Positions 969 through 21,508 of a DNA stretch of 21,508 nucleotides are shown here, one piece after another. Each line of letters opens with the position of its first letter. Positions within the stretch are counted from its first letter, which is position 1. The notes under the pieces were generated by a model. That model saw only the letters and a list, made by a program, of their open reading frames with translations, had not been told where the DNA came from and did not search any database. The translations under genes were made by a program, and so were the position numbers. The stretch is from a virus. The stretch spans positions 1 to 21,508 of IMG/VR virus record IMGVR_UViG_3300042691_009095; one strand, 5' to 3'.

Positions 969-1172
969 ATGGCTATCTACTCATACGACTGCCAAGAGCA
1001 CGGGCGATTTGAAATAACTCGCCCGATGGCAGAGAGTGACGAGCAGGGAGAATGCCCTGCCTGTCACAAGCTCTGGGATAGAGTGAAGTTTATAGACGCT
1101 ACCATAACCCACGACTACAGAGGATTATGGATGAAGAACCACGGCGGATATAGTGTTGTAGATAAGAAATAA
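969..1172 (+). CDS. Small FmdB-like zinc-ribbon protein
   Basis: A 67-residue protein beginning MAIYSYDC, the usual opening of FmdB/CxxC zinc-ribbon proteins. The first metal-binding knuckle is C8-x2-H11 rather than the common C-x2-C. The second is C29-P-A-C32, so the site would be Cys3His. A good Shine-Dalgarno (GAGGAG) sits about 7 bases before the ATG and overlaps the end of the reductase gene. The reductase stop is 12 bases upstream and a terminator follows at once, so this is the last gene of the plus-strand unit. FmdB-type proteins are small putative regulators with poorly known function. Whether this one binds DNA, RNA or a protein cannot be read from the sequence. Structural zinc binding is likely; a functional link to the reductase is only suggested by adjacency. 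Confidence 0.8.
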   Translation: MAIYSYDCQEHGRFEITRPMAESDEQGECPACHKLWDRVKFIDATITHDYRGLWMKNHGGYSVVDKK

Positions 1173-6500: not shown

Positions 6501-8693
6501 AGTTCGAGCAAACGCATATGACACCTCTAAACCACGCTGCATGGCGTAGTAGCCAGCGATAGCCCCGTCGGATTCTACCCCGAGACTTCTAAGTGCTTGC
6601 TTTGTTAGAGTTCCCTTATTGGCTTGAGTTGCTCTCATAGCCTTATTCACAGCGGGCCATTCAGCATCTGGTATTCTTTTAACGGCGTTGTTGTACAGGG
6701 TTTTGAACAAAGCTTCTGCGTCACGCTCTGAGCCAGCAGCAAGGCGCATCCCATTCACCACTTTTGGGGAGAGCGCACTGTAAATGTTTCTAAACATATT
6801 GCCCGGAGAAAACGAACTAAACGCCTTTATAAACATACTATTAGAAGATGTAGGACTACTAGCAAACAAAGCTCGTCTCAGCAAAGGAACTCCCATTCCT
6901 TCGATAAGATTTTCTCCAATTCCATCAGAGTAAATTAACCTATTAACTGGAATATTATAAGAGGTATCGACAAACCATTCAAAGTGCTTGGCACCACGCT
7001 TGCTTACGGACAGGCTCTGGGCTGCTTTGAAGATGTCTCCATCAGCCTCTGTATAGATTACGCCAGAGTTCTTGTCTCGCAGAGAATACTTAACCTCTCC
7101 AGCATATTCCGAAAGCCCCATACGGGCAATAGCTGCCTGTGCATCCTCTTTAGTTTTATATCCAACATTGTCTCCACCGCCAAATCGACCAGTCACCGAG
7201 ATGTTAGTTTGGTCTTCAGAAATCTCTATGACAGAGTTGGCAGGACTGCCATGCAAGCCACGAGAACGAACAAATTCGCGCACAGCAACAGGAGCCCCGT
7301 CAGCAACAAGAGCTATCGGACGCTTGATAATGCTCATCAACTGTTCTTCTACGCGACCAGACAGGGCATCAATTTCTTCAAATGCTTTGTTAAGGTCGGC
7401 ACTGATGTTGCTTCTATCAAACGCAACACGACTTTTGGGAAGACCAGTTGCAATGGCACCCGGCAAATCTTCTTCTACACCCTTGCCCCCAGCACGAACG
7501 GCCGTTGCTACCTCACGGGCAACAACATTCCTTGATATTGGGGCTCTATGCACTGCGGCTTTTAGCATTCTGTTGGTGTTTCTAGCGCCGCGGGTCAGCA
7601 ATACCATTGGGCCACCAAAGTCAACCAATGTAGCAAAGCTATCTAATCCCTGCGCGGCATCCATTACAGTTTCTTGCCCAACAAAATTAACAGCAGCTCC
7701 TATCCATTTATCAAGAAAGCCCTGTTCACTATTAGGGTCTCTTGTAAGAACATCTTGGAGCAAAGCTCCATATGCGTCCTGAAGGGCTAGAGTTCTTCCT
7801 CCACTGGCATTTGTGCCAATAGGGGCTTTGCGATAAGCCTCGAGATGGGCAGCAAACTTTCTTTTATCTTCAGGAGAAAGGCCAGCTACTAAGCCAGCGG
7901 CCTTTGCCTTAAGCTCGCCGCTTCCTTCCTCAGCAAACTTCTTCATGTCAATGCCACGATACTTGTTGCCAAAGTCCTGCAAACTCTTAATACCACTTGT
8001 TTGTAGCAGGTCAAGAACAATGACGTTAACACCTAGATTGAAGCTACCGGGCACAAGTTCAAGACCAGTATTAAGCAGGTCTGTAGCGCCACCCTTACCT
8101 ATCATTCTGGGCCTAAAGAAGTATTGGTTATCTGCGTTTCTATACGCTGTATTTAGAAGCTTGTTGGCTTCTTCATCATCGTCTGTAGACATAGCTGCAG
8201 ACACAAGGATGGCTTCTTTCTTTGTCTTTACATTAGTGGAAGCAATAGCAGCCTGTCTACGAGAGCCAGTTCTTTCTTCAATACGCGCACCATCTTCCTC
8301 CAGAGTGCCCTCACGCAGAGCAAGAGACTGGTCATGCGACCTTTCAAGCAGCATTTCTGCTTGCTCATACTGGTTTGCATCTTTATTCTCAATAGCCTGT
8401 AGATTTGTAAACATCTTCAGGTATTCTGCTCTCTGTTCGGCAGGGATGTCATAACTAAAGGCGAGCTGCTCTACAGCAGCCCGTCTAACTTCATAGTTAT
8501 CGTCTTTGGCGCGTCTAACCGTATCCAGAATGTCGTCTTGAGTCGGGCCTTCTGGTGGAGTTTCTTTACCAACGCCTTCATTTGCCAGCCTGAAGTAAGA
8601 CAGTCTATCCGCCTGTTGGTATGGAGTTTGCTCGACAAACGGCTCGTCAGGCATCTCGTATTTTACAAGGGGCATTTCTACTTTTTGACTCAC
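3579..8693 (-). CDS. Giant internal virion / DNA-ejection protein (1704 aa)
   Basis: This is the largest gene of the window. The start is GTG, chosen because AAGGA (8701-8705) sits 7 bases upstream; no ATG gives a better fit. Residues 1-200 are highly charged and helical. A hydrophobic stretch at about 211-230 is followed by long mixed helical regions with many Ala/Gly-rich amphipathic segments. I see no transglycosylase, protease or polymerase motifs. By position (after the gp13- and gp14-like genes) it matches the T7 gp16 slot (1318 residues). Such proteins form the core stack and are ejected into the cell envelope to make a DNA channel. The transglycosylase domain that T7 gp16 carries at its N-terminus is absent here and is encoded by the gene at 1202-1801. 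A virion location is likely; the detailed role is inferred from context. Confidence 0.7.
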   Translation of the reverse strand: MSQKVEMPLVKYEMPDEPFVEQTPYQQADRLSYFRLANEGVGKETPPEGPTQDDILDTVRRAKDDNYEVRRAAVEQLAFSYDIPAEQRAEYLKMFTNLQAIENKDANQYEQAEMLLERSHDQSLALREGTLEEDGARIEERTGSRRQAAIASTNVKTKKEAILVSAAMSTDDDEEANKLLNTAYRNADNQYFFRPRMIGKGGATDLLNTGLELVPGSFNLGVNVIVLDLLQTSGIKSLQDFGNKYRGIDMKKFAEEGSGELKAKAAGLVAGLSPEDKRKFAAHLEAYRKAPIGTNASGGRTLALQDAYGALLQDVLTRDPNSEQGFLDKWIGAAVNFVGQETVMDAAQGLDSFATLVDFGGPMVLLTRGARNTNRMLKAAVHRAPISRNVVAREVATAVRAGGKGVEEDLPGAIATGLPKSRVAFDRSNISADLNKAFEEIDALSGRVEEQLMSIIKRPIALVADGAPVAVREFVRSRGLHGSPANSVIEISEDQTNISVTGRFGGGDNVGYKTKEDAQAAIARMGLSEYAGEVKYSLRDKNSGVIYTEADGDIFKAAQSLSVSKRGAKHFEWFVDTSYNIPVNRLIYSDGIGENLIEGMGVPLLRRALFASSPTSSNSMFIKAFSSFSPGNMFRNIYSALSPKVVNGMRLAAGSERDAEALFKTLYNNAVKRIPDAEWPAVNKAMRATQANKGTLTKQALRSLGVESDGAIAGYYAMQRGLEVSYAFARTGLSRSLAAQGYVRITSPKGRFLGYAKEVDTIPELKQGEAVKYVDDGGETIIRTMGPAEMAGLKERGYTLYKSQEIEWSGGMEVPYVAVKAADPKMKVIPVKEGDDVLNAVPGYFPENLNDNYVVFGRSKSGRKYIVATARSEQAVKDFVAKEFPNQTFKQGSEFAEKYTELVAEPFGSVWNQSLQIRQGLYENLNGLVYGKKGEAIVSLDGPVGSNYTDPMEAVYTTFRLLADNYTKGAHVQYLENTLMASLRKYPELLNNSQDVMLRGYVSIDDVVSSPPQYLQKQWEELTSTLNTIEAYKLLPDDTVAATSKVSAWAASKATNWSGVQEIMQRASRTGFSPMNFWKKFRYNTIIRMRPAPHYMLNSMQAVMNLGWPVSSGKAIVSHGTFQTALYARLDYAGGQISKQEMMKRIRELDKFKSVTGLSSDELYDLADSYVTSGLWEQVKHNSTMKFATLSDAEQLGRPRNSGVSRLSQVANSIGDSFDAIGAPAGEHYATQFTYLAQYFATRGKNKSYLKSPTNKAALLGRTQDFLGNMTPEGQLGIQRGFLSASTQFQAFGMKMQFTLTPFLQPTTLSKIDALRLGVGAVPILGVRAFETSALLYKTWLDSYINDPDHLERREQWERSPIRPIAEKGIINSAIDALVRNVAFLFDKDVSFMDVNAIEWDLASKMGTGASTGIWYTVLENARGYVEAFSDFSDGSLFSKEGFSNKIDGGKKLLSTLLGLDNSVVTVAERYFSLYGGMGTENLTPEEYAKLIAIAGWDVVKKMVPVFGDAERYMILRDTGQLMTGGVPSGESGKGSLADFFYIVGANAPTESEADWYRYVNSWKTMKSSEENYRKQVQDTASNLRKYIYSDVLIEGLPGEIQHQAVEKYRAGLTIFFAAMEDKQFVLDVQDDLERQLRDDIIRDTKEGKKVKAWVGEISNPSLNKEAYERLEEIRKSGLGMESSELLDSLIKAYKEQTYVRGEK

Positions 8694-8711: not shown

Positions 8712-9200
8712 TTAAGCGGATGGTGGTGTTGGGAACATCTCGTTTTTCTGCTTACCCGGCATAGCCATTCCAATTTCACCAACCTTCTGCAATACACCAA
8801 AGCCTGTCTGCATATTATTAATACTAGACAATTTTTGTGCAGCAGATTGCTGCTGAAAGCTTTGACCAATATTTGACGCAGCCTGTGAAGCAATTGAGCC
8901 TCTTTGTGCGGCTTGGCTTGAGCTTCCGCCTGTGCCACTAACAACTCCAATAAACTCGTTAGCCCTTTGTTTTTGCCTCATTGCTGCCAGCTGCTTAACT
9001 CGTTCTCTAGAGTTCTGCACTCTAGCAATTCTTTCTTGGGCGATGCTTGCTTTTCTTGCCATAACACCCTGACCAGCCGCACCAACGCCACTCACCACAG
9101 CCGCACCAGTTGCGGCAACAGCTGCTGCACTAGTACCAGCAGCTGCAACCGCGGCACTTCCTCCCAAAACGGCAGTACCAATTGCTGTAAAAATAGCCAT
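8712..9200 (-). CDS. Small Ala/Gly-rich internal virion protein, gp14-like
   Basis: A 162-residue protein. Residues 1-47 are almost entirely Ala, Gly, Val, Ser and Thr, an apolar low-complexity segment able to enter a membrane. A basic helical region (about 48-82) and a Gln/Ser-rich tail follow. T7 gp14 (196 residues), the small ejection protein that forms the outer-membrane pore, has a similar size and a hydrophobic segment. The gene lies in the same slot, after the GNAT-like gp13-position gene and before the large internal proteins. Its start overlaps the upstream stop (TAATG). The next gene begins 18 bases downstream. The match to gp14 rests on position and composition, not on a conserved motif. 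Confidence 0.65.
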   Translation of the reverse strand: MAIFTAIGTAVLGGSAAVAAAGTSAAAVAATGAAVVSGVGAAGQGVMARKASIAQERIARVQNSRERVKQLAAMRQKQRANEFIGVVSGTGGSSSQAAQRGSIASQAASNIGQSFQQQSAAQKLSSINNMQTGFGVLQKVGEIGMAMPGKQKNEMFPTPPSA

Positions 9201-9628: not shown

Positions 9629-11754
9629 ACAACAGTGTTTCCTGTGAACTTAATAGCCCATCCAAGGATGTGCAAATTCTTACCATTAGACGTGCTGAAT
9701 CGCAGAGACAATGCCTTGCCTCTACCAGTCAACCTGTTCTTTGTAGTTATGATGCTATGTCCATAATCCAAAGGTTGTCCAGCAACAGGAAGTATAATCG
9801 CCCTATTTAGACGGTACACTTCTGTAGAGGGGCCCCATTTACCACTAGTGGCACTGTCCGAGAAGTCCCATCTACTCTGCACTATGCAAGAGCTTGGGTC
9901 GTCATACTCCACAGCCCCACCAGCACCTAGGGCCTCTACAGAGTTTTCAGTGCGCTGGCAGTGAACAATCAGGTATGGGGCTTGCTTATTTGTCATGGTG
10001 GTATCAACAAGCTCATAACCAGTTAGCAAATAGCCTTCGTAATATCTGCCAGTTCCATTAAAGCTTTTCCAGTCCACAAAGGAATCGTCCCTATAGTGGG
10101 CAAACGATATCTTGGGAATAGAACTTCCAGCCTCATAATACAAAACTAAATACTTAGTAATGCTAGAGCCCAAGTCTTGTGCGCTAATCAAGTCTGGAGT
10201 GGTCAGGTATCCAGCAACATACGGGGATACTCCGTCCAGAGGGGTAATTGTATTCTTTGTAAATGCAGAAAGCACCACATCAAGAGCTAATTCAGTGTCG
10301 TATTCGTACTTGTAATTAATCCCGTCATAGTCCAAGCTAGTGCTGTATAGCCAAGTAACCCTTCTATTTACGGCATCATAGCTTCCGACTGCCTGTTCTT
10401 TATTGGCTTTTGGCAACGCATTCAAAATACTTTGGATGGTGTTTTCCGATATGTTTCTAATTCCAGAACCACCATCTACAGGGCCGATGTAATAGATACC
10501 AGCCTTACTCCAGTACATAATAGAGGACTCTGTTCGTACGACACTCTTGCCACTGATAACGCCGAAGTCACTTACCTTTTCGACTTGCTGTTCTATAGCA
10601 CTAAATCCAGTATCACCGCCACGAATAGCCCAAATGCCATTCTGGGCAAATACATATATCACGTCATTCAGAGCAACAAGTTTGTAAATCTTTCCGCTAT
10701 CTGGAATATTTACATAGCCGCCATCACTAGGAGCCAACTCATTATCAATTTCAGATGTAATGTCTGCATCTGAGTAGCAGCTTCCAAAGTCTTGGGGAGT
10801 TCTAATAATTCGACTATAAAACACAAATCCTTGCATTGAAGGGGCTGTATCCGTCAAGCTTATTTGTTTCCCATCAACTCCAGAATACCAGACTCTCTGC
10901 TGGAAAAACTCAATACAGGATGGCTTAGACGGCTCGGTATCAGAAGGAAGGCTTGAAATTCCAGACTGTCCAATTCTATCTGCGCTTCTATCAAAGGCGC
11001 TAATAATATAGCGGCCTTTAGGTGCAGCTGAAGTACCAAAGTCTATTTTATCAAGCTTAGCCGCCGCAAAGTCGTCAGTAGAGTTCTTAGCCACATACCA
11101 AATCTCTGCATTAGACGGGTAGCTACCTCTGTTTGTGTAGGTAGCCGTATTTTTACTGGCATCCCAGCCCTGATTGTACAGATTATATTTATGTGTGTCA
11201 GATAAACTTGCTGGCTTTGCGCTCACAGCAAGCCCGTCATTTACCCCGAAAAAGTCTCGTATACTAAGATTAATGTATCTAATTGATATAGTGTTATTTA
11301 CATACTCCAATACCGCAGGGAGACCTGAGCCCGAGGTAAAGAAAAAGAATCCCATGCCACAAGCGCTTTGGATTTCTTTAGTTTCATCAATGATTGCGGT
11401 TGATGCGTCAATTGTAGCAATAAGGCTAGAGCTGATTGTGGTAGCAGCTGCGTTGTATACAAGCAGTTTATCACCAACTTGAACAACAGCAAACTGATTT
11501 GCCACTGTATTCCCAGCATTAACCCACTCATGGCAAGAAACACCAATAGCCGCACTCGTCATAGACGAGACGGCTGTACTTGTGTAGTTTGCTTCGAAAT
11601 CCATCCCAAGACGCAGCTGTCTACTGCCATTTCTATTAAGAACAAAGTTAGCTTCGTCAATGGAGGCATTTTCAGGAAAGTTAATACCATTTGCTTCGGT
11701 AATAATTCCCTTAGTGAAACTGTTATACTCTTTGTTTGCGCTTTGAATTGCCAC
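9625..11754 (-). CDS. Tail tubular protein B (nozzle), T7 gp12-like
   Basis: The N-terminal motif NKEYNSFTKG followed by NFPENAS, the Asn/Arg-rich NFVLNRNGSR, and RLGMDFE is the recognised opening of podovirus tail tubular protein B, which forms the distal nozzle of the short tail. The rest is beta-rich and about 700 residues long, in the family range. The start is GTG at 11754, five codons inside the longer TTG-started frame (11769): GGAG (11761-11764) sits exactly 6 bases upstream of the GTG, while the TTG has no comparable site. This gives 709 residues, beginning MAIQSANKEYNSF. The gene overlaps the upstream 83-residue gene by 32 bases and the downstream GNAT gene by ATGA. It follows tail tubular protein A, as in T7, with one small gene inserted. 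Confidence 0.88.
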   Translation of the reverse strand: MAIQSANKEYNSFTKGIITEANGINFPENASIDEANFVLNRNGSRQLRLGMDFEANYTSTAVSSMTSAAIGVSCHEWVNAGNTVANQFAVVQVGDKLLVYNAAATTISSSLIATIDASTAIIDETKEIQSACGMGFFFFTSGSGLPAVLEYVNNTISIRYINLSIRDFFGVNDGLAVSAKPASLSDTHKYNLYNQGWDASKNTATYTNRGSYPSNAEIWYVAKNSTDDFAAAKLDKIDFGTSAAPKGRYIISAFDRSADRIGQSGISSLPSDTEPSKPSCIEFFQQRVWYSGVDGKQISLTDTAPSMQGFVFYSRIIRTPQDFGSCYSDADITSEIDNELAPSDGGYVNIPDSGKIYKLVALNDVIYVFAQNGIWAIRGGDTGFSAIEQQVEKVSDFGVISGKSVVRTESSIMYWSKAGIYYIGPVDGGSGIRNISENTIQSILNALPKANKEQAVGSYDAVNRRVTWLYSTSLDYDGINYKYEYDTELALDVVLSAFTKNTITPLDGVSPYVAGYLTTPDLISAQDLGSSITKYLVLYYEAGSSIPKISFAHYRDDSFVDWKSFNGTGRYYEGYLLTGYELVDTTMTNKQAPYLIVHCQRTENSVEALGAGGAVEYDDPSSCIVQSRWDFSDSATSGKWGPSTEVYRLNRAIILPVAGQPLDYGHSIITTKNRLTGRGKALSLRFSTSNGKNLHILGWAIKFTGNTVV

Positions 11755-11974
11755 TTTCTTCTCCGACAAAGGCTGGTTCTTCCACAGTAACTTTCTGACT
11801 GGAGTTTGGTTTATTCTCTGCCAAGTATTTATTAATAGCTAATTTAGCTAAAGCATGGCTTGTAAACTCTCCCTGCAGAGGCCAAGGAATTTCTCCATTT
11901 GTACCTTCGTAGGCAATTACTTTATTGGAAGATGTAGTAGAACATTTAATTATGAAGTTTCTTTCAGATGCCAT
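11723..11974 (-). CDS. Small unknown protein between tail tubular A and B (83 aa)
   Basis: An 83-residue protein, unrecognised. Residues 1-50 look folded: the strand-rich start RNFIIKC, a WPLQGEF turn and the helix HALAKLAINKYLAE. The last 30 residues are polar and charged and end with a basic tail (KRKQRV). The start overlaps the stop of tail tubular A (TAATG), and the 3' end overlaps the tail tubular B start by 32 bases, so it is firmly embedded in the operon and likely translated with its neighbours. The location suggests a small tail or connector assembly factor, but nothing in the sequence proves it. T7 has no gene between 11 and 12. Confidence 0.7.
   Translation of the reverse strand: MASERNFIIKCSTTSSNKVIAYEGTNGEIPWPLQGEFTSHALAKLAINKYLAENKPNSSQKVTVEEPAFVGEESGNSKRKQRV
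11761..11764 (-). promoter_or_regulatory. Ribosome binding site deciding the GTG start of tail tubular protein B
   Basis: On the minus strand GGAG is followed by AAGAAA and then GTG at 11754-11752. The spacing of 6 is ideal. It lies inside the alternative TTG-started frame, which therefore looks like a spurious extension. Confidence 0.7.
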
Positions 11975-12720
11975 TATTTTCTTCCGTAGTTGTGATATTT
12001 AATTCGTTTGCCACCAGCCCTGAATTTTTCTCCAGATAGCCACGCGCGTTGGCGCTGGGCGTGTTGCTCCACCTTCTGATGGGGAGCTTCCTTGATAGTC
12101 ATGAAGGACATGCTCTTTGCTTCGCTAATAAAGTAGGGAAACATCTTGGCAGGAATATTGGGGACAAAATCATCCGTTGCAGTCCACACGGGCTCTTTCT
12201 CGCCATAAGCATAGCATTTAGAACTCTGAATGGTGGACTCAATGTCGGAGTTATAACTGTCGAAGATAATAGTCTTGTCATCAAACGATGTCCAGTACAC
12301 AGGAGCAGCATCGTTTACGATGAATAGCGGTATTGTATCAAGCACTGTAGTGACATTAGAAGCACTAGGGCTACGGCCCATGCACATATCTGCAAACTCT
12401 TCCGGAACAAGATATTGCAATTGTCGCGGGTCTACAGGGTCTGTCTCTTCTTTTCTACAGTCGTACTTAATGCTTTCTACTCTAATAACGTCGTCTTCAA
12501 TACGAACATGAGTAGGCTTGGCCGGATTGACCAAGGCTGTGAGATTAAAGAACGATGCCGTATGTGGCAGTATGCGTTCGTTAATCATATTGAAATAGGT
12601 GCGCTTAGCAATCTGTACCACTTGTTGCGCTTCGATGGTATCGTTGATACTGTTTACGTTGTCCGAGTTCATATCGGACAGAATTTCTTGTACAACTTCA
12701 AGCAGAGTCATTTTAGCCAT
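11974..12720 (-). CDS. Tail tubular protein A (gatekeeper/adaptor), T7 gp11-like
   Basis: A 248-residue protein. The N-terminal half has the long-helix pattern of the family (EVVQEILSDMNSDNVNSINDTIEAQQV, then YFNMINERILPH). The C-terminus is the diagnostic end: helix with ISEAKS, then RQRAWLSGEKFRAGGKR and HNYGRK. This protein sits between portal and nozzle and closes the head. The annotated ATG lies 12 bases after an AGGA, which is rather far. ATG codon 4 (12711) is an alternative. A four-codon minicistron (ATG at 12727, stop at 12713) overlaps the start. The gene begins after the 59-base gap that holds a strong hairpin (12742-12769). It is followed without a gap by the 83-residue gene (TAATG). 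Confidence 0.88.
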   Translation of the reverse strand: MAKMTLLEVVQEILSDMNSDNVNSINDTIEAQQVVQIAKRTYFNMINERILPHTASFFNLTALVNPAKPTHVRIEDDVIRVESIKYDCRKEETDPVDPRQLQYLVPEEFADMCMGRSPSASNVTTVLDTIPLFIVNDAAPVYWTSFDDKTIIFDSYNSDIESTIQSSKCYAYGEKEPVWTATDDFVPNIPAKMFPYFISEAKSMSFMTIKEAPHQKVEQHAQRQRAWLSGEKFRAGGKRIKYHNYGRK

Positions 12721-12779: not shown

Positions 12780-13238
12780 TTAGATGACGCGATACTGGAA
12801 CACAACCTTGGCCTTACCAGCAGCGGTAATGGTCGGGTTTGTGCCATCCAAAGCCACCACGATGTTGGCAGCAGCCGCCAGCGGGGTGTCAACAGCCAGT
12901 GTGCCAGCCGGAGCAGCCGAGGCGTATGTGCCCACAGCTTCTGCGTTGGCTTCGCTGATTTCGGCAAGGTAGTTAGTACCGTGCGAAGCAGAGACACCGA
13001 TGTTGATGGTCGGGGTTGTACCACCGAGCACGAAGGCCTCAGCGATTTCAACCAGCGGCTTGCCTACAATTGCAGCGCCAGCCGGAAGGCTAAACGCAAC
13101 GCTCTGATAGTTTTCACCAGTAAAGACAACAACGCCTTCTTTCACGCAGCCGTCTGTTTCCAGAACGCCTTGCACGGCCTCATGACGGCCTTTAGCGCCG
13201 TAATAGTTTTTAACGCCATTGATAACTTGAATAGTCAT
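12780..13238 (-). CDS. Head decoration / capsid-stabilising protein
   Basis: A 152-residue protein rich in Ala, Gly, Val and Thr with alternating short strands and no long helices, suggesting a beta-barrel. It lies directly after the major capsid gene, the usual place for cement or head-fibre proteins. The ribosome binding site is a perfect AAGGAG seven bases from the ATG, the strongest in the window, which fits a protein made in hundreds of copies. Base composition is GC-rich like that of the capsid gene. No specific family motif was recognised. The gene lies in the same reading frame as the capsid gene but is separated by two in-frame TAA codons. It is followed by the hairpin at 12742-12769. 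Confidence 0.7.
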   Translation of the reverse strand: MTIQVINGVKNYYGAKGRHEAVQGVLETDGCVKEGVVVFTGENYQSVAFSLPAGAAIVGKPLVEIAEAFVLGGTTPTINIGVSASHGTNYLAEISEANAEAVGTYASAAPAGTLAVDTPLAAAANIVVALDGTNPTITAAGKAKVVFQYRVI

Positions 13239-13253
13239 ATTAAATCTCCTTTA

Positions 13254-14231
13254 TTAGTAGTTGCTGGCAGAAGTCAGAACCACACCCAGAGATTCCGGAC
13301 GCTGACGACCAAAGCCATAGCGAGAACGAGTCACGAACTCATCACGGGCCAAGTCTTTGTTACGGTCGCCTTCAACGCGCGGCATTTGTCTCCAAGCACC
13401 CATAATCGGCTTGATGGAATCATCCAGCACGTTCATGAAGACGTTAGCAACCGAGCCAATCGGAGCAGTTTCGGATGTACCGTTGTGCGAGATTGTTTCG
13501 GCGGCTGTGATGTTCGCAAGACGCGAGGAGGTGTAGATGTCCCAGCCAAACAGGTTGAACAGGAACTTGTGGTCACGCACGAAGCCTTGCTCCAGAACGC
13601 CTTGGAACTGCGGGTTTCTGTCCATCGAGACAGTGGCACCAGCCAGCTTGTTCAGGGTGGCTTCCACAACCGGGTCAACCAGAGCGATACGACCAGCTTG
13701 CGGAACATTGGCTTTGTCAAAAGCCAGCTTCATGTCGATGAAGTCAGTCAGACCAATCTTGTAGCTGTTGTCAGCGCCAGAGTCAGCAACCCAGCGATGG
13801 TCGAAGCCGTTGATGGCATTCTTGTCACCAGCGGTTTGGGCAGTGATACCAGCAACTTTCAGGAACTTCGTTTCGAAGTCTTCCTGAATGGCACGAGTGG
13901 ATTCAACACCACGCATAGCCATCAGCTGTTCGATTTGAGCACCGTCTTGACGCAGCACGTCCGACACATACCAAGCATCGCCAATGTAGTCGGTGATAGC
14001 CAGTGTGACGGTCGAGGTGTCAATCGGGTTGTAGGTGACTGCCTTGTCTTCTTCAACGTCTTGGACGGTGGCAGCGCCAACGACCTTGATGTTCAGCTGA
14101 GTACCGGCCGGAAAGTCAGAGACGTTACGGTAGAAAGTACCCGGCAACAGGCCGTCGTGCAGGTTCGCAAGAATGAACTGCGAATACTGCTGGGCTTCAA
14201 TAAAAGCCGAGGTATTAGTTGTAAGTTGCAT
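13254..14231 (-). CDS. Major capsid protein
   Basis: A 325-residue protein in the standard place after the scaffold gene. The N-terminal region (YSQFILANLHDGLLPGTFYRNVSDFPAG), the central strand SFT-like segment and the late KDLARDEFVTRSRYGFGRQRPESLGV are typical of HK97-fold capsid proteins of T7-architecture marine podoviruses. There is no sign of a cleavable prohead domain; a separate scaffold is present. The ribosome binding site is AAGGAT, six bases before the ATG, immediately after the scaffold stop. The gene ends with tandem TAA TAA. Its codons are visibly more GC-rich than those of neighbouring tail genes, as expected for the most strongly expressed late gene. Confidence 0.9.
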   Translation of the reverse strand: MQLTTNTSAFIEAQQYSQFILANLHDGLLPGTFYRNVSDFPAGTQLNIKVVGAATVQDVEEDKAVTYNPIDTSTVTLAITDYIGDAWYVSDVLRQDGAQIEQLMAMRGVESTRAIQEDFETKFLKVAGITAQTAGDKNAINGFDHRWVADSGADNSYKIGLTDFIDMKLAFDKANVPQAGRIALVDPVVEATLNKLAGATVSMDRNPQFQGVLEQGFVRDHKFLFNLFGWDIYTSSRLANITAAETISHNGTSETAPIGSVANVFMNVLDDSIKPIMGAWRQMPRVEGDRNKDLARDEFVTRSRYGFGRQRPESLGVVLTSASNY

Positions 14232-14240
14232 TATTTATCC

Positions 14241-14942
14241 TTATGTATTGTTAGTTGGATTTACAGCTCTCCAAGCAGCCAGTAGGTCGCTAGTAGAAGC
14301 ACCAGCCATTACAGGTTTAACTTGGGCGGGCTGTTTGCCTTGAGCAAGCGCTTGAGAATTGATACTACCAGCTGAGACTGCTGTTGTTGGCGCGGATTCC
14401 TTCTTTGCCAACCCAAACAATTCCAGCGCAGCAGCGGGAGATTTTGCAGCCAAGTCAGTTAAGAAAGCATCGTTCACACCAAGTTCCTTTGCTTTGGTAG
14501 TAAAGACTTCCTGTGCCTTTTCGCCAAACTTCTCTGTTAGGCTATTTCTTACTTTACTAAGATTTATACTCCTCACTTCCTCTTGTCGCTTTTGTTCGAG
14601 CTTACGCTCAAGCACAGAGTCCAGAACATTTTCGTCTAATACAGGCTGCAGGATGGTCTGTCCGGCTTCCGGTTGACGGGACACAAGTGCCTCGTACACT
14701 TCATCAATAGCCTTAGCTTGAGCTGCCTTCTCACGCAAAGCCTTATTCTCTTCTTCAATTCGAGCAATGTGGGCTTGTGCATGGGGAAGGGCTTTTAGCG
14801 CGTCTTCGATTGTAGAGTACTTTTTGCCAGCTCCCACAAGGCTAACTACTTCGCTCGGTAAAGTCAAAGCAGCAGGAGGGGCGGCGGGTTCCTGAGTTTG
14901 CGTGGTCGTGCTTTCTTCAGGGAATAAAGTTGATTCAGTCAT
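14241..14942 (-). CDS. Scaffolding protein
   Basis: A 233-residue, acidic and helical protein. It has a Pro/Thr/Gln-rich N-terminal tail, a long charged coiled-coil segment (about 65-150, with EEENKALREKAAQ and RKLEQKRQEEVRS), and a C-terminal disordered stretch ending in a short helix, TSDLLAAWRAVN. This is the organisation of podovirus scaffolds, which shape the prohead and then leave it. The start was placed at 14942 rather than 14969, because GAGG (14949-14952) sits 6 bases upstream and the shorter form overlaps the previous stop by only 8 bases. The longer frame would add nine residues. The capsid gene follows after nine bases. Confidence 0.88.
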   Translation of the reverse strand: MTESTLFPEESTTTQTQEPAAPPAALTLPSEVVSLVGAGKKYSTIEDALKALPHAQAHIARIEEENKALREKAAQAKAIDEVYEALVSRQPEAGQTILQPVLDENVLDSVLERKLEQKRQEEVRSINLSKVRNSLTEKFGEKAQEVFTTKAKELGVNDAFLTDLAAKSPAAALELFGLAKKESAPTTAVSAGSINSQALAQGKQPAQVKPVMAGASTSDLLAAWRAVNPTNNT

Positions 14943-15195
14943 TGGATTCCTCAATTGGTAATAGGTCAATTACCTTTCGGTAAGTTCGTTTAGCGCCGTT
15001 AATGTCGGCCTGTAGATACGCCCAATTGGACGCATTGTACACATCATTCTTTAACTCATTATCCTCCAATGTTTGCAGTTCAGATTCAAGAATTTGTTTT
15101 AGAAGCTTCAGGGCAGGTTTCCCTGCCTGAATTAGAGCTTTACGTTCTTTTTTAGCATCGAGAGTCTTTGCCCCCTTTAGCCAAGCAGTTTTCAT
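14935..15195 (-). CDS. Small unknown protein upstream of scaffold (86 aa)
   Basis: An 86-residue protein, unrecognised. The basic N-terminus (KTAWLKGAKTLDAKKERKAL) is followed by helices LLKQILESELQTLEDNELK and NWAYLQADINGAKRTYRKVIDLLP, so it is probably a small helical protein. The start at ATG 15195 was chosen because it forms an ATGA overlap with the stop of the preceding basic-protein gene, matching other junctions here. A GTG at 15225 would add ten residues. Its place between the portal region and the scaffold suggests a minor head or assembly protein, but function is unknown. Confidence 0.65.
   Translation of the reverse strand: MKTAWLKGAKTLDAKKERKALIQAGKPALKLLKQILESELQTLEDNELKNDVYNASNWAYLQADINGAKRTYRKVIDLLPIEESND
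14949..14952 (-). promoter_or_regulatory. Ribosome binding site deciding the scaffold start
   Basis: GAGG on the minus strand, followed by six bases and ATG at 14942-14940. It makes the inner Met the likely start over the ATG at 14969, which lies further inside the preceding gene. Confidence 0.7.
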
Positions 15196-16622
15196 CCCTT
15201 GCCCGGTTTGCGGCGAAGATGCCACTTGCCATCAGAGCGACCCATCAAACCACCAATCTGCATGTCTTTCTTGGGAGCCTTTCCTCCCGAAGACTGGAAC
15301 TTATCAAGCTCGGCCTGAAGGGTTGTTCCACTTGATGCAGGTTTAGAGATTTCAACTGTAGCGCCACCAGAGGCAACTTTCTTATCCATGCTCCAAGCAG
15401 GGCGTCCTCCGCCAGTTTCCAGTTCTTTGCGGAAGGCCGTGTGCATATCGTAACTAGCACTGCCAACGCTATCAACGCCTTTGCTGGATGTACTTGGTTT
15501 AGCCGAAGCTGCACTAGCAGGATTAACTGCCTTTTTAGCAGGAGCCGCGGCCTTCGGAGCCGCTGGCTTTGAAGCTGACGCCACGGGAGTGCTAAACTTA
15601 CCACGGGCTCCGCCACGAGAGGTCGGGCCCTTACTTCCACCTGTGGCTGGCTTAACGCCTCCAAATGTTCCGCCTTGCTTCGGAGTGGTTGGCAAAGCTA
15701 AGGGAGCTTTACCACTACGCTTTCCTTCTGCTTGCGCACCACGAACCAAACCAACTGCTGCGCCAGCTACAGCTCCATATTGTCTACCAACTGCATATCC
15801 AGTGGTAGCATCATCTACGACTGTAGCAAGAATATTTCTACCCGCAGATTTTCCATCACCACGAATCTTGCCAGCTACATAGCCACCACCCAATTCAGAA
15901 ACAAGGGCTTTCGGAGAAATGATATTTCCAAGTACTTTGCCACCAACTCCCCCCTTCGGGGCAGAAGCGGCAGCTGCAGGTTTGCCACTAGCGGCAGCTT
16001 TGCCACTAGTAACTGTAGGCTTGCCAACCGGAACCATACCAGTACCCGGCTTAGGCTTCGGAGCCGGAACCATAGCTGTACCTTTTGGAACCGGAACCAT
16101 TCCCTTGCCCTTAGCTACTGTTGCCATTCCTGTCCCTGTTTTCGGGGCACTAACCGCAGGTTTTGGTTTAGCTGCTTTTGCTGGCTTAGAAGATGCTGGC
16201 TTTGCATCCGGGGCTTTTGTAGTAGCAGGTTTGCTTTCTGCTTTTGGTTTGGCAGCAGAAGCCTTGGTCGGCTTATTAGCCGCGGCTGTGGCTTTCTTCA
16301 TGCCTTTGGCTTGAGCAGCTTCGGGAACAGGCTTGCCGTCGGCAACTGTAATACGAAGGCTTGCCTTAGCTCTGGCTTTCTCAGCCTTAGCTCTGCCAGC
16401 GGCAGTGTTTGTATTAATCTTCTTTGGTTCTGCTTTGCCTTTTCCCATGGCTTTCGGAGCAGCAGCTTCCAATTTTTTAGCAATATAAGCCTTGCGTTCC
16501 GCAGCTGGCATAGCGCGAATTCTTTCCAATTCTGCTCTATTTGCAATACGTACATCGGCGTCTTCAGAGAAGCCCTTTGCTTCTCCAGCGAGGTCTTCCA
16601 TTTTTACTAGTCTTTTAGCCAT
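15192..16622 (-). CDS. Highly basic Lys/Ala/Pro/Gly-rich low-complexity protein, histone H1/AlgP-like in composition
   Basis: A 476-residue protein placed between portal and scaffold. By hand count it has about 66 Lys and 21 Arg against 31 acidic residues. Residues 1-60 look folded (a helical KMEDLAGEAKGFSEDADV region, then ANRAELERIRAMPAAERKAYIAKKLE). Residues 60-225 are disordered, built from AKPK, KPA and a degenerate GMVPVPK-type repeat (163-203). Residues 245-295 are a Gly/Ala-rich stretch resembling a glycine zipper (GYAVGRQYGAVAGAAVGLVRG). Residues 300-380 are again Lys/Pro/Ala. The last 90 are more mixed and end with a basic tail (HLRRKPGKG). There is no signal peptide or enzyme motif. 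The start overlaps the portal stop (TAATG) and the end overlaps the next gene by ATGA. A role in binding packaged DNA or in the head core is inference from charge and place; it could instead be a minor head protein. Confidence 0.8.
   Translation of the reverse strand: MAKRLVKMEDLAGEAKGFSEDADVRIANRAELERIRAMPAAERKAYIAKKLEAAAPKAMGKGKAEPKKINTNTAAGRAKAEKARAKASLRITVADGKPVPEAAQAKGMKKATAAANKPTKASAAKPKAESKPATTKAPDAKPASSKPAKAAKPKPAVSAPKTGTGMATVAKGKGMVPVPKGTAMVPAPKPKPGTGMVPVGKPTVTSGKAAASGKPAAAASAPKGGVGGKVLGNIISPKALVSELGGGYVAGKIRGDGKSAGRNILATVVDDATTGYAVGRQYGAVAGAAVGLVRGAQAEGKRSGKAPLALPTTPKQGGTFGGVKPATGGSKGPTSRGGARGKFSTPVASASKPAAPKAAAPAKKAVNPASAASAKPSTSSKGVDSVGSASYDMHTAFRKELETGGGRPAWSMDKKVASGGATVEISKPASSGTTLQAELDKFQSSGGKAPKKDMQIGGLMGRSDGKWHLRRKPGKG
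16014..16136 (-). repeat. Degenerate GMVPVPK-type peptide repeat region
   Basis: Within the basic protein (residues 163-203), four imperfect units centred on GMATVAK, GMVPVPK, AMVPAPK and GMVPVGK follow each other at 9-12-residue spacing. The units alternate with Lys/Gly/Pro linkers. They are visible at protein level and only loosely at DNA level, so they are old or selected at the amino-acid level. Confidence 0.7.
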
Positions 16623-18418
16623 TACATTTGTCCTTGTGCTAATACGGCGGCCTCTTCGTCAGCCGTCAGGTTGGGGTCTACCATATACTCTTCTTGCAGT
16701 TGCTTTTGTGATTGTTGGGCCAAAGACATTGTTTCAGCATCCTCGAACACTCTCACATTATCTTGGAACAAAGCAAACTTATCAAGTCCCAAGTATTCTT
16801 CCAGCAACTTAGCAACAGCTTTGCCAGAGATATGTGTTCTAACAGACGGGTCTTGTCCAATCGCAGACTGATAAAAAGCTGTTAGATTTTGAATAGTTGT
16901 AGCTTGAGCAGCAAAATGTCGAGCTCCCATCGGTCGAATCTTGCCAGAGGCGGTGATGTCATCTTTGGTAATTTCCATAAACTTCAGAACACCAAGGTCA
17001 TCATCAAGTACTCGTACCAAGTCGGCACCATCCATATTACGCTTGCTTACCTCGAACATCTTATTCAGAATGTCTTCGATACATTCAACTTCAAAGTGCG
17101 TAATCTTGTTCTGGAAGATGCGAGAGGCGGCTTGTTCCAAGCTCTGCACTTCATATGCAGTTTTCTCGCCCGGAGTGCGGATGCCCATAGCTTGCTTGGG
17201 AGCACCAGCCATTTCTTCCATCTTGAGTTCCAGCATGGCAATCTCGTTATTAGCTGCAATAACGCCATTAAGACTCTTGCCCAGCTCCTGAATGTTTCCG
17301 CCCTCGCCAATATAAATCTCGGCATTCGGGCCCCATTCAAACTCTTCGACATTGCCTGTAATCGCCAGAGGCGGATGTACGGCCAAATCCATTGCGTCAG
17401 CTTTGAGGTTTTCCAGATGGTCAATGCGATACTGCATACCCACCAGATTGTCCAGAGGCCCCATGCCATAAAGGTTATCGGGGCGCATTCTCCAGCCCAC
17501 ATGACCTTTGGTGGTCTTGCCCATCCAAGACGGCATAGGAACAATTCGGATTACCTTGGCTCTATCTACTACCGTGATTAGCACGTTCTGATGGAACTTT
17601 CCAGTATCCTTATCGTGTAGAGAGCCCTCAAACTCTAGAATCTCGACATATCCGCTTTGCAGATAGTCCGAGTAATTGCCAAAACCATCAACCTGAAGGG
17701 CAAGGGCTTTGGAGAGGTCTTCAGTGGAGTATCCAGCCAGATTGCGGCGATAATTCTCCATATCTCCCACCACATCCTTATTATACCCCATTTCTGGCAT
17801 ATTGTCAAGCTCCCATTTCAATTCTCCGAAAGTTTTTACACTTCGGACAATATTGTAGGAGTCCTTAAAGCTGGAAGCCAGCGGATTAAAGACAACATCA
17901 TACGGGCTGATACGCTTCAGTTTAGGGCCACGATAGCCCTGAATTATGTTTCCATCAGCATCTTTATGGCTTTCGTTGACAAATACGACATCCCAAAACA
18001 CATTGCCGTAATCAATGAAGTCGTACAGAAGCTTGTACACCTCAGTGCGGAAGCCAGACATTCTAATCTTGTTGCCCACGTAGGCTTCGATTGTCTTACG
18101 CTTTTCCAGTGTAACCGCGTCTCTGCTGTATCCTTCCCACTTAAACCAGTTATCGTTAGGGAATAGGGCAGAGGCGTAGTTAGCGTGAAGATTATCTCTA
18201 ATCTGACACAACTTCGGAATGGTAGTTTTGTTCTTCCACGGGAGCTTACTATTGCTAGTCTTTGTCGTGTCCGTGGCAAAGATGTAGTTGCGCAGCTCTT
18301 CCTTCTCTTTAATCCATGTATTTCTATTTGTGTTTAGATTATCCCACATATAGGCCACTTCGCTAGCAAGTCCTGCTGGCTGCAAAATACCTTTAATTTC
18401 TGCTACTTTAACACTCAT
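16622..18418 (-). CDS. Portal (head-to-tail connector) protein, T7 gp8-like
   Basis: A 598-residue protein encoded right after the large terminase, the standard portal position. The N-terminal part has the hallmark arrangement of podovirus portals: a helix with NRNTWIKEKEELRNYIFATDT, the segment KTTIPKLCQIRDNLHANYASALFPND, and a long helical KLLYDFIDYGN. Later PDNLYGMGPLDNLVGMQYRIDHLENLKADAMD and a helical region with PGEKTAYEVQSLEQAASRIFQNKI match the stem and crown helices. The C-terminus is acidic and Gln-rich. Family length is roughly 500-730 residues (T7: 536). It forms the dodecameric channel through which DNA is packaged and ejected. It overlaps the large terminase by ATGA and the basic-protein gene by TAATG. 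Confidence 0.92.
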   Translation of the reverse strand: MSVKVAEIKGILQPAGLASEVAYMWDNLNTNRNTWIKEKEELRNYIFATDTTKTSNSKLPWKNKTTIPKLCQIRDNLHANYASALFPNDNWFKWEGYSRDAVTLEKRKTIEAYVGNKIRMSGFRTEVYKLLYDFIDYGNVFWDVVFVNESHKDADGNIIQGYRGPKLKRISPYDVVFNPLASSFKDSYNIVRSVKTFGELKWELDNMPEMGYNKDVVGDMENYRRNLAGYSTEDLSKALALQVDGFGNYSDYLQSGYVEILEFEGSLHDKDTGKFHQNVLITVVDRAKVIRIVPMPSWMGKTTKGHVGWRMRPDNLYGMGPLDNLVGMQYRIDHLENLKADAMDLAVHPPLAITGNVEEFEWGPNAEIYIGEGGNIQELGKSLNGVIAANNEIAMLELKMEEMAGAPKQAMGIRTPGEKTAYEVQSLEQAASRIFQNKITHFEVECIEDILNKMFEVSKRNMDGADLVRVLDDDLGVLKFMEITKDDITASGKIRPMGARHFAAQATTIQNLTAFYQSAIGQDPSVRTHISGKAVAKLLEEYLGLDKFALFQDNVRVFEDAETMSLAQQSQKQLQEEYMVDPNLTADEEAAVLAQGQM

Positions 18419-19947
18419 GCTGTTACGCCTCCAAAGCGGCTATTAAACTGCAATACATTGCTTCTTTTCATTTTGTTACCTCGTACCATAGGCGGCGTAG
18501 CAATATCAATTGCCGCTGTTAGCGCGTCCTTAATATCGTCGTGCGGTGGCTTCTCAAGCATCAACTCTTCTTCTAGTGCTGATGTGTTGGCCGACTTATA
18601 ATGCCAAATCTTCCGATTGTCGTACTTAGGTTCCAAAGTAGCAGCAATTCGCTCTTCCTTGTTACCCTCGTGTCTGCTCGGGCGATACTCGTCAATGACC
18701 AGATTCATGCCTTGTTTGGCTATGTAGTTTTCCTTCAGGTCTCTGACAATCACTTGTTGCGCCACAGTTACTTCGCATCGAAGCTTCTTGAATCCCCACT
18801 TCCTGTGCATCCTTTGGATGGCGTGAAAGTAGTCGCTAATCCTGTCACTCTTAAACCTATCAATATCAAGTACATAGATGTTAGAGTCGCTGTCAATGCC
18901 TACAACTACAATTGCCGTGCTGTCTGCCTTAGCCTTTATGGAGAACGCAAAGTCAATAGCAGCTACCACGTTCAGGCGCTTGTCTGCAAAGTACCAGCCA
19001 TCTGGTTCCATGCGCAAGAATCTTGGCTCAAAGTATTGAAACTTATCTGGAGAAATCCTGTGGCTTGACGGGTCATTCGGGTTCTGATAGTACTGAGCGT
19101 AAAACTGAGTTCTATCTTCGTACTCTGCCTTAATTTTGCTCAGGATGTTTCTATCAAAGCCAAATCGCTTCCCATCAGTACGAGCCTGTCTGGGCCATAA
19201 AAACTCACCATCAGTCTCTACTACACGCACGTAGCTGTCCCATACATACTCCTCGCTAACTACCTCATCATTATTATCATAGATGTGATAGGATTGTTTC
19301 ATAAAGGTTGTGTACTGGTCTTTGCCATGGTAGCGTGTACCAACACAATCCATCTTAGCGTCAGGCACTTTAATGGAAGCAATCTGGCTAATAATAGCCG
19401 CCACAGACTGCCTACCATCTTCCGTGTATGCGTTTTTGGGAACCACAACGTCGTCTAGCTTAACCTTTGTAGCGTGGAATCCAGTAACGTTTGTTGTTAA
19501 GCCAGCCGTCTTGATAGACGGGTCTCGTATACCTTCCGACTTACGAAGAGGGTGGTCTACTGAAATTTCACTTAGACTCCACTTCTCTCGCTTTCCTTCT
19601 TGGGCATGAATCATCTCAGGCCAATACTTAGTATATGTCTTATTGGTCATGATGTTTTTCATCAAGGCCAATTGCTGCTCCGCCAAGTCCGATGTAGCAG
19701 ACACATACAAAATTGTTTCAGTCGGGTCTTTAGTCAACTCCCACACTGTCTTATACGCAATCAACATAGACTTCATGTGACCACGCGGCAAGAGCACCAT
19801 TACGTTGTCTTTCCTAGACGAGCTTGTCCACCAGCGAATTAAGTCTCGGTGGCACTCGCCAAGCAACAGATGAGGGGCAACTAGCCCAATAAACACCTCT
19901 AAATCTGCTTCTGCTGCCTGTCTAATCTCGTCTTGTGTCAAACTCAT
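18415..19947 (-). CDS. terL: Terminase large subunit (packaging ATPase/nuclease)
   Basis: A 510-residue protein with both motor domains. The deviant Walker A is LPRGHMKS (53-60). The Walker B-like strand VKLDDVVV is at 162-169 with D165/D166, and the GTRYHGKD coupling motif at 203-210. The RNase H-like nuclease domain starts with AAIDFAF (Asp332), and its last metal ligands lie in HDDIKDA (469-475). Length fits the family (T7 gp19: 586). It pumps DNA into the prohead through the portal and cuts the concatemer. The ATG overlaps the upstream stop by ATGA. Walker A has Met where most have Gly, a change seen in the RGHxKS type of podovirus terminases. Confidence 0.95.
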   Translation of the reverse strand: MSLTQDEIRQAAEADLEVFIGLVAPHLLLGECHRDLIRWWTSSSRKDNVMVLLPRGHMKSMLIAYKTVWELTKDPTETILYVSATSDLAEQQLALMKNIMTNKTYTKYWPEMIHAQEGKREKWSLSEISVDHPLRKSEGIRDPSIKTAGLTTNVTGFHATKVKLDDVVVPKNAYTEDGRQSVAAIISQIASIKVPDAKMDCVGTRYHGKDQYTTFMKQSYHIYDNNDEVVSEEYVWDSYVRVVETDGEFLWPRQARTDGKRFGFDRNILSKIKAEYEDRTQFYAQYYQNPNDPSSHRISPDKFQYFEPRFLRMEPDGWYFADKRLNVVAAIDFAFSIKAKADSTAIVVVGIDSDSNIYVLDIDRFKSDRISDYFHAIQRMHRKWGFKKLRCEVTVAQQVIVRDLKENYIAKQGMNLVIDEYRPSRHEGNKEERIAATLEPKYDNRKIWHYKSANTSALEEELMLEKPPHDDIKDALTAAIDIATPPMVRGNKMKRSNVLQFNSRFGGVTA

Positions 19948-20471
19948 TGTTGCTCCGCTGGCGGTAGTTCAGGTTCAAACGGTGGGCCTTCGCCGCCTTC
20001 TGTATATACATATGTAAATGAGAACGGCAAAAAGAAATCGACTACTGCAGGAGTTCCTGCGGAGTCTGTAACCGTTACTTTAATCTCGCCAGTCTTAGAG
20101 TCATTGCGTCCAACGGAAGTAGATGCAGTTATGGTCTTAGTCTGGTCATCCACTACTATAGTTAGTGGTGGGCCATCAGCAACAACAGCAGTTACAGTGT
20201 AGGGCGATGTTCCGCCACTTACATTATATACAACTGAGTCAGACTGTGTGTCGGCAATGGGACAAGAGCCAGTGGGATTATCGCAACTCAATGTGTCTGT
20301 AAAGTTGTCTGTAGTGTTGCCAAGAGCCAAAGGAATAGCAGCAAATAAGTCCACCCAAGCACTGCCATTCCATCGCTTTGCAATTGTTAGGTCAGCCCAT
20401 GTAGTGCCATTCCAGCGCTTTTTGGTGGTGATGTTAGCCCACGAGGAGCCATTCCAGCGTGTACCTGCCAT
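19944..20471 (-). CDS. RWNG-repeat plus Ig-like domain protein, probable virion surface or fibre component
   Basis: A 175-residue protein. Residues 5-42 are three tandem 14-residue units built on RWNGxxWxxL, as found in phage fibre and surface proteins. Residues 53-76 have a Cys pair (C63, C70) in a Thr/Asp/Asn-rich linker. Residues 78-150 form one beta-rich Ig/PKD-like domain (SGGTSPYTVT, then TITAST and GEIKVTVTDSAG). The tail is Pro/Glu-rich and disordered. There is no signal peptide. It lies between the tail-fibre-type gene (3-base gap) and the large terminase (ATGA overlap). Attachment to glycans or to the particle surface is inference. It may be a distal part of the fibre encoded separately, or a head-surface decoration. 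Fold assignment is moderate; function is unproven. Confidence 0.72.
   Translation of the reverse strand: MAGTRWNGSSWANITTKKRWNGTTWADLTIAKRWNGSAWVDLFAAIPLALGNTTDNFTDTLSCDNPTGSCPIADTQSDSVVYNVSGGTSPYTVTAVVADGPPLTIVVDDQTKTITASTSVGRNDSKTGEIKVTVTDSAGTPAVVDFFLPFSFTYVYTEGGEGPPFEPELPPAEQQ
20346..20459 (-). repeat. Triplicated 42-bp RWNG-unit tandem repeat
   Basis: Three copies of a 42-bp unit (the third partial) encode residues 5-18, 19-32 and 33-42 of the Ig-like protein. The similarity is also visible in the DNA (GCCATTCCA repeated on the plus strand at regular spacing), so the duplication is fairly recent or is kept by exchange. Confidence 0.8.
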
Positions 20472-20474
20472 AAG

Positions 20475-20948
20475 TCACCAGAACCAAAGGCTTTGCATTG
20501 TAGGATGATTTAACGCTGTAGGAGCACCTGATTGAACATAGATAGTAGGCTCTGCTTCGATGGTGTCCAGTCTAGTATCAAGAGATGTCAGGTCGCTCAC
20601 CAAGCCAGTTACGTCGCTCTTGACGTGCGTGTGCGTAGCCGGAGTAAAGGTTGTGGGCTTGCCAGTAATGCTTGCCCATGTGTGCACATGATTCTCAGGT
20701 GTGTACAGGTTAAGCGTTCCAAGAGCAAGCAGTTGGCCCAATGTAACGGGCTCATTGTTTGTAGCTGCTGTAGGCAAATTAAGAATGCGGTTGCTGTTCA
20801 TGTCCAAAGAAGCAGACATCGTATTAGGAGCCGTGCCGTCTCTGCTTACGGTATTCTCCAGTGCAGTCTCAATCAATGCAAAGTTAGCATTGAGCAAGTC
20901 TACAGTAAAGCTGCCGCTTGCCAAATCGTATAGTGTTAGTTTAGCCAT
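20475..20948 (-). CDS. Short tail-fibre-type protein (fibre N-terminal / adaptor-like)
   Basis: A 157-residue protein. Residues 1-75 have the pattern of phage fibre attachment regions (MAKLTLYDLASG, then ENTVSRDGTAPNTMSASLDMN and LNLPTAATNNEPVTLGQL). Two HxH motifs, HVH (87-89) and HTH (106-108), sit in Thr/Pro-rich linkers, as in trimeric fibres that bind metal along the axis. A short coiled-coil-like stretch (LVSDLTSLDTRLDTIE) precedes the end, LWFW. No receptor-binding domain follows, so it is too short for a complete fibre; it may be an adaptor for a fibre encoded outside the window, or a head/collar fibre. AAAGGA lies eight bases upstream of the ATG. The start overlaps the small terminase stop by 8 bases. 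Confidence 0.82.
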   Translation of the reverse strand: MAKLTLYDLASGSFTVDLLNANFALIETALENTVSRDGTAPNTMSASLDMNSNRILNLPTAATNNEPVTLGQLLALGTLNLYTPENHVHTWASITGKPTTFTPATHTHVKSDVTGLVSDLTSLDTRLDTIEAEPTIYVQSGAPTALNHPTMQSLWFW

Positions 20949-21456
20949 TAGACTTTCCTTTAATTAGTTCTAAAATACGTGCGCCTTCTGCCTTGGTAGA
21001 ATCTTCTGTAAGAGTGGCTCGTTTCAAAGCTGCCTCTTTATCTGCCTTTGTAGGGCGTCCTTTCCCAGAAGAATACTCTTTATTAGCAATATACTTGGCA
21101 GCGTTGTAGTTTCCCTCTTCTGCCATTTCTTTAATTTTACTCATGGCACGAGCAGTAAGTTTTAGTTCTAGCTCATAGCGCCAATCTTCAATATGTTCTC
21201 GAATTGCAGAGTTACCACAAATCTTCTTCCAGTGATTCCAGCCAGCCAGATGTGCGTCGGCAAAGGCATACTCTGTTACGTCTTCCATTTCTAGATACAG
21301 GCGCTTCAGGCTTGTGTATGTCTTGCCCTTATACACTTTGTCTACGTCATCAAATGTAAAAAAGGCTTCTGAGTCGTAGGCTGTCTCTAGGAACAGGCTC
21401 TGGGTTTTATATCTACCCATGCTGTCCAGAAAGTCACTGCGTTGCTTCGTAGTCAT
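20941..21456 (-). CDS. terS: Terminase small subunit
   Basis: A 171-residue protein with the sequence pattern of small terminases of T7-architecture podoviruses: TYTSLKRLYLEMEDVTEYAFADAHLAGWNHW in the middle, EDWRYELELKLTARAMSKI, then GNYNAAKYIANKEYSS followed by GRPTKADKEA and a charged tail. The family binds phage DNA and starts packaging with the large subunit. AAGGAT lies about ten bases before the ATG. The start overlaps the preceding gene by ATGA. Two fibre/Ig-type genes separate it from the large subunit, which is unusual, although in T7 too a small gene lies between the subunits. Confidence 0.85.
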   Translation of the reverse strand: MTTKQRSDFLDSMGRYKTQSLFLETAYDSEAFFTFDDVDKVYKGKTYTSLKRLYLEMEDVTEYAFADAHLAGWNHWKKICGNSAIREHIEDWRYELELKLTARAMSKIKEMAEEGNYNAAKYIANKEYSSGKGRPTKADKEAALKRATLTEDSTKAEGARILELIKGKSNG

Positions 21457-21508
21457 TGTGGGTCATCCTTTTTGGGCTTCGGAATCGGGGAGCCGACATC
21501 CACAGTCG
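21453..21508 (-). CDS. 3' end of an unidentified gene cut by the right edge
   Basis: One minus-strand frame is open from the window edge to a TGA at 21455-21453 that overlaps the small terminase ATG in the ATGA arrangement seen at other junctions. The visible end reads GSPIPKPKKDDPQ, a polar Pro/Lys/Asp tail. The other two frames end without such a fit. The product cannot be identified from 17 residues. Confidence 0.5.
   Translation of the reverse strand, partial: TVDVGSPIPKPKKDDPQ

Follow-up and report, generated by a model that had tools for sequence, protein, structure and literature searches.

Between the portal gene and the head-assembly genes of a Zobellviridae-like podovirus, known from a 21.5-kb virus record (21,508 nucleotides, hereafter the window), lies a gene for a strongly basic protein that is real, constrained, optional, hypervariable, modular and translationally coupled to the head genes that flank it. 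Its location, which we call the slot, is a hypervariable cassette site in the clade of the window, and the slot proteins are modular mosaics whose central and C-terminal modules have been exchanged and are joined by disordered K/P/A linkers. We tentatively read the gene as encoding an accessory, probably head-internal and DNA-associated cargo protein comparable to the internal proteins (IPs) of phage T4.

A constrained basic gene within the head operon

An earlier sequence-only reading had described a protein with 66 lysines and 21 arginines against 31 acidic residues, and both its extent and these counts are exact (Table 1). With 17 E and 14 D, the net charge is +56 and the pI 10.5; K, P, A, G, S, and T make up 68% of the protein and cysteine is absent. 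The charge per residue (0.118) lies about 4 standard deviations above that of the 17 other operon genes (mean -0.010, sd 0.031, maximum 0.062). In relatives, the homologous stretches have an open coding frame under constraint (pN/pS 0.23-0.36), against pN/pS values of 1.0-1.7 in the other two forward frames. When only pairs with unsaturated dS are considered, the dN/dS of homologous modules is 0.10-0.22 in every pair, which argues that the slot proteins are functional though optional. The tight coupling to both neighbours that had been proposed also stands: AAGGA, located 8 nt before the start of the gene, is followed by an overlap of the portal TAA and the slot ATG (TAATG), and the slot-gene stop overlaps the likely ATG of the next gene (GGATGAAAAC). 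Both couplings are intact in the alleles inspected, and AAGGACAAATG also directly precedes the small gene in L013, a relative with an empty slot. Scanning the slot for promoter and terminator patterns yielded nothing useful. The same allele is carried by a second IMG/VR record, near-identical across the slot region and divergent at 10.5–12.7 kb, and is therefore not an assembly artefact of a single record; likewise, the allele of L008 was found in records of three metagenomes.

Table 1. Coordinates of the slot gene, its parts and its neighbours in the window.
Feature	Position	Strand	Basis or remarks
Portal, left neighbour, conserved	16622..18418	-	phrog_332 E=1.7e-96; Pfam PF12236
Upstream coupling	16620..16635	-	AAGGA (16635-16631) in portal gene end; TAATG overlap
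Basic slot protein gene, 476 aa, net +56	15192..16622	-	ORF, composition, coding constraint
Predicted N-terminal helical hairpin, residues ~21-55	16458..16562	-	AlphaFold
Disordered K/P/A-rich linker with GMVPVPK-type units, residues 56-224	15951..16457	-	composition; pLDDT mostly <50
Central Gly/Ala module, residues 225-343	15594..15950	-	common to L008; dN/dS 0.16
Second low-complexity linker, residues 344-379	15486..15593	-	composition
C-terminal module, residues 380-476	15195..15485	-	common to L012, L016 (65-66% aa)
Conserved small gene, right neighbour, 86 aa from ATG 15195	14935..15195	-	phrog_8956 E=1.4e-17
Scaffold, separate gene	14241..14969	-	phrog_7931; matches genes annotated scaffold in L001, L003

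AlphaFold predicts a confident structure only for the N-terminal helical hairpin (pLDDT >90 in residues 31-50; mean 47.7 over the whole protein, with an alignment of eight sequences only), and the protein outside residues ~21-55 scores as disordered in this model, for which Foldseek retrieved no significant match among viral models. The AKPK/KPA blocks noted earlier are present, as are GMVPVPK-type units, of which there are three, imperfect, at about residues 172-200; no DNA tandem array was found over them, and the only tandem repeat in the gene is one 18-nt unit in 2.1 copies. The glycine-zipper-like centre can be recognised by eye, whereas by profile it is weak: the Pfam glycine zipper gives E = 2.3 and 6.8 with bits far under the cut-off, so that, at the profile level, a glycine-zipper membrane domain would not be assigned, the match falling below the gathering score. 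One Gly/Ala-rich hydrophobic segment occurs in each of 10 of 14 slot proteins and is missing in four alleles, and its peak hydrophobicity of only 0.8-1.4 (KD, 19 residues) does not reach the range usual for transmembrane segments. The C-terminal module is constrained (pN/pS 0.28-0.31 in pairs with the window; dN/dS 0.13 for L012/L016), and the constrained modules contain the tryptic peptides NILATVVDDATTGYAVGR and QYGAVAGAAVGLVR.

On the minus strand the genes follow the order terminase, portal (up to 58% identity to named Zobellviridae), basic gene, small gene, scaffold, capsid (phrog_267), and further head and tail genes. The proposed insertion between portal and scaffold thus holds but not the adjacency to the scaffold, since the small gene intervenes. 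Similarly, T7, with its portal-then-scaffold order, had been taken as the comparison, and the Zobellviridae are a better match: ICP2, CW02, O4/PA11, CVT22, VpV262, and RIO-1 have homologous flanks and the same order terminase-portal-small gene-scaffold-capsid. Further downstream, the window encodes a basic 162-aa protein whose composition and place in the gene order look gp14-like, a 1704-aa protein weakly matching an internal virion protein family (phrog_12003, E=6e-4), a 592-aa protein, and an SLT lysozyme; candidates for T7 gp14/gp15/gp16 lie at 8712-9200, 1801-3579, and 3579-8693. 

The small gene (phrog_8956, ~80 aa) is itself conserved: nearly all of the Zobellviridae examined have this undescribed head gene between scaffold and portal, and its product shows near-invariant Q62, A63, and L78 and the consensus Y..P.W...QAD..G..R. 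At the other end of the window, an ORF resembling by eye the C-terminus of a ribonucleotide reductase (3-956, plus strand) converges with the structural module and is followed by a small protein (969-1172, plus strand) that looks zinc-ribbon-like, also by eye only. Comparison of the window with L007 (IMGVR_UViG_3300031857_003370) showed almost identical sequence from ~13,000 to 21,508 and differences at about a quarter of positions in the tail-tube genes (10500-12700), with a sharp recombination boundary near 12,700.

Losses, length variation and module exchange

To read the slot across relatives, we located portal, small gene, and scaffold in IMG/VR records by iterated profiles and inspected the intervening content. 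The window belongs to an uncultured clade of 12 portal rows (SH-aLRT 100), in which 10 of the 12 lineages carry a basic slot protein of 125–574 aa and +23 to +73 net charge: 476 aa (+56), 574 (+73, two rows), 356 (+43), 145 (+25), 481 (+60), 200 (+27), 125 (+23), 145 (+24), and 164 (+27). The slot is empty in L013 and L018, which are nested in the portal tree beside the carriers L014 and L016, a distribution most simply explained by losses. L016 and L018 are 97.2% identical in portal DNA, and where the former has a 200-aa slot protein the latter retains an 18-codon remnant (MAIKLVQPKVKTINAGKG followed by a stop) made of the first 12 codons and the last few, with both couplings. No second copy of the gene was found in the contigs of L013 (a 27.6-kb fragment) and L018 (a 4.7-kb fragment with the remnant only). 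Most related phages of the clade keep such a protein at this locus, whereas among the named relatives the slot is empty in 19 of 19 informative records, where the portal is directly followed by the ~80-aa small gene, the scaffold, and the capsid. These records, unlike the window in this respect and with genomes of similar size, are T5S1, O4, CW02, CVT22, MEP402, JSF27, ICP2, ICBM1, CRP-5, 1.253.O, VpV262, RIO-1, 1.070.O, ctOsX528, KpnP_VR7901, and four other oyster-associated phages; SIO1 was left out as uninformative because its record opens near the portal.

Slot proteins differ 3- to 5-fold in length and charge between close relatives, and the coefficient of variation of their length is 0.77, compared with 0.000–0.059 for portal, small gene, scaffold, and capsid (terminase was not included, being fragmentary at several loci). 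Net charge rises with protein length (r = 0.98) at ~0.11 per residue in all alleles. Exchange is evident at the module level. The L008 and L015 genes share 71% DNA identity in their N-terminal part and 91% in their C-terminal part, and the centre of L008 is instead the central Gly/Ala module of the window (78% DNA, 73% aa), the left changeover falling in a K/P/A tract. The last ~33 residues of the window C-terminal module also occur in L014, L017, and L067; this module is not universal, L008 and L015 having another type and L020 neither. Whereas the small genes and scaffolds of L016 and L017 are 99.3% and 97.0% identical, respectively, their slot proteins share the final 52 nt only.

Searches with the slot protein against PHROGs, Pfam, NCBIfam, PADLOC, the PDB, and 50,697 phage records returned no significant match, and the individual modules had no homologue in the same five collections or in named phages; the best module match, to phrog_37425 in the centre of the protein (E=0.009), was judged untrustworthy. 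In IMG/VR, the modules were retrieved only from this slot and this clade; the gene was absent from every named phage of the collection searched, and bacterial genomes scanned with the portal gave no match. The outcome was equally negative for known IPs (PHROGs, Pfam, PDB, and phage tblastn), internal virion protein families, known counter-defence proteins, and, in Pfam, the winged-helix domain of linker histone H1.

A putative head cargo and its alternatives

Scaffold identity was rejected, as the scaffold is a separate gene and the slot protein has no homology to it. The proposal of an internal core (ejection) protein likewise appears unlikely, given that the gp14-like protein, the giant internal-virion-protein-like protein, and the SLT lysozyme are encoded separately. 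Since scaffold, portal, capsid, and T7-like internal proteins all have their own genes and close relatives lack the basic one, the slot protein is unlikely to be a core part of assembly or ejection. An internal or DNA-associated role nevertheless remains plausible, as first suggested, for a basic, largely disordered protein without known homologue encoded in a head-morphogenesis operon, and an accessory head cargo fits the charge kept at all lengths, the coupling to head genes, the hypervariability, and the module exchange.

Under the cargo reading, an exchangeable cassette between the portal and the head-assembly genes would encode a largely disordered, DNA-associating protein that would be co-assembled into the prohead, carried in the head with the genome, and probably delivered into the cell at infection, like T4 IPI-III. 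The conserved C-terminal modules may bind a partner or mediate incorporation, and the variable payload would reside in the N-terminal and central modules; the K/P/A tracts could be flexible cationic spacers, keeping the protein attached to DNA and allowing modules to be swapped. We consider it probable that the protein is packaged in the virion and, to a similar degree, that it binds DNA; that it is injected and acts on the host, for instance in counter-defence, is possible, if doubtful. A broader and more speculative idea, somewhat unlikely in our opinion, is that the site corresponds, in podoviruses, to the internal-protein hotspot of T4: a dedicated locus after the portal at which phages would exchange modular cationic injected effectors, whose K/P/A linkers would provide both the hold on DNA and recombination-tolerant joints.

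T4-type IPs carry an N-terminal capsid-targeting leader that is cleaved by the head protease; no common N-terminal leader was seen when slot alleles were compared with each other, and prohead protease processing is not known for this phage group. Both kinds of protein are basic and optional, have a link to head assembly and little conservation even between close relatives, and are encoded at a genomic hotspot, with unrelated bodies attached to a shared end module. In the slot proteins, by contrast, this module is C-terminal and not universal, most of the sequence is predicted to be disordered, the size (125-574 aa) exceeds that of T4 IPs, a single slot lies beside the portal, and homology to the T4 proteins was not found. 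We accordingly do not file the slot protein as a member of the T4 IP family, which we take as its nearest putative functional parallel. The T4 IPs number ~300 copies in each head, bind DNA in low-salt conditions, and are non-essential and poorly conserved among relatives (PMC9026906); their non-homologous bodies, joined to a common leader, act as inhibitors of different GmrSD enzymes (PMC12373910). Dispensability of the slot protein would be a further parallel, suggested by its natural absence. If the slot protein is indeed a head-internal cargo, the interval defined by portal, slot, and small gene offers a bounded locus to mine uncultured podoviruses for injected host-directed proteins, in parallel with the T4 ip loci that led to inhibitors of GmrSD restriction enzymes. 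The natural deletions beside near-identical carriers make the role of the slot directly testable, and the locus exemplifies how domains in a virion operon are shuffled via disordered basic linkers.

Other explanations account for part of these data. A condensation factor similar to histones or protamines, without payload and packaged for no other purpose than charge neutralisation and ordering of the genome, would suit the strong positive charge, the disordered K/P/A-rich composition, and the constancy of charge per residue at every allele length. The idea of a general histone coating the packaged DNA does not, however, agree with the absence of the gene from the 19 named relatives of similar genome size, its loss in two clade members beside near-identical carriers, or its variable length and charge; the modules are constrained and are kept and exchanged rather than being simply cationic. 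Natural loss and constraint thus weaken a pure histone-like role, which we regard as unlikely. The resemblance to H1 tails and AlgP-like proteins was set aside: it concerns K/A/P-rich composition only, with no Pfam match, linker-histone domain included, no tandem KPAA-type array as in AlgP, and constrained non-repeat modules in the slot protein. The view that two essential genes simply tolerate quickly decaying ORFans of no function between them is scarcely credible in view of the low dN/dS in every unsaturated module pair, the intact couplings, and the identical alleles in independent records, despite the low complexity, indels, and recent losses that such decay would produce.

The Gly/Ala segment, present in most slot proteins and swapped as a unit between L008 and L015, might instead insert in or bridge the envelope at DNA entry while basic tails guide the DNA. 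Such a membrane or ejection accessory role is possible for alleles with the segment; as an account of the slot protein we hold it distinctly unlikely, considering the low hydrophobicity, the four alleles without the segment, the non-significant glycine-zipper match, and the ejection set already encoded by the window. T7 gp14/gp15/gp16 share with the slot protein its putative head-internal location, and many slot alleles have a Gly/Ala-rich segment, but there is no homology. Finally, a non-virion chaperone or scaffold partner that helps in prohead formation and then leaves would be in keeping with the position between portal and scaffold, the translational coupling, and a charge opposite to the net negative charges of portal (-18), scaffold (-4), and capsid (-11). 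This appears quite improbable because the gene is dispensable in the L016/L018 pair, where scaffold and portal are nearly identical, and because the C-terminal type does not track the scaffold type, L016 and L017 on the one hand and L008 and L015 on the other having a scaffold type in common, yet with different C-termini.

Slot contents in other clades

Outside the clade of the window, the slot is empty in most IMG/VR relatives and otherwise contains short HNH_3-like proteins with KRARNNARRK, an acidic ~260-aa protein, or basic ORFs of other kinds. Relatives of the acidic protein (257-271 aa, phrog_8198; L042, L044, L045, L047, and L056) occur in cyanophages, where their annotations are tail fibre, virion structural, or hypothetical protein. 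Two overlapping ORFs (1037-1282 and 1279-2763) make up the portal in L010 (1037-2763), compatible with a frameshift, a sequencing error, or a true split. Strongly basic proteins of 77-101 aa, HNH_3 endonuclease-like (phrog_4590) and with the motif KKQRARNNAARRK, fill the slot in L029-L031, L033, L034, L052, L075, L078, and L124; the HNH_3 match of the L052 protein (E=2e-5) is just under the cut-off. Beside its small basic slot protein, L031 has a second, fuller HNH-like ORF (7739-8296, 185 aa) with zinc-finger-like CxxC pairs and a DHIVPL motif.
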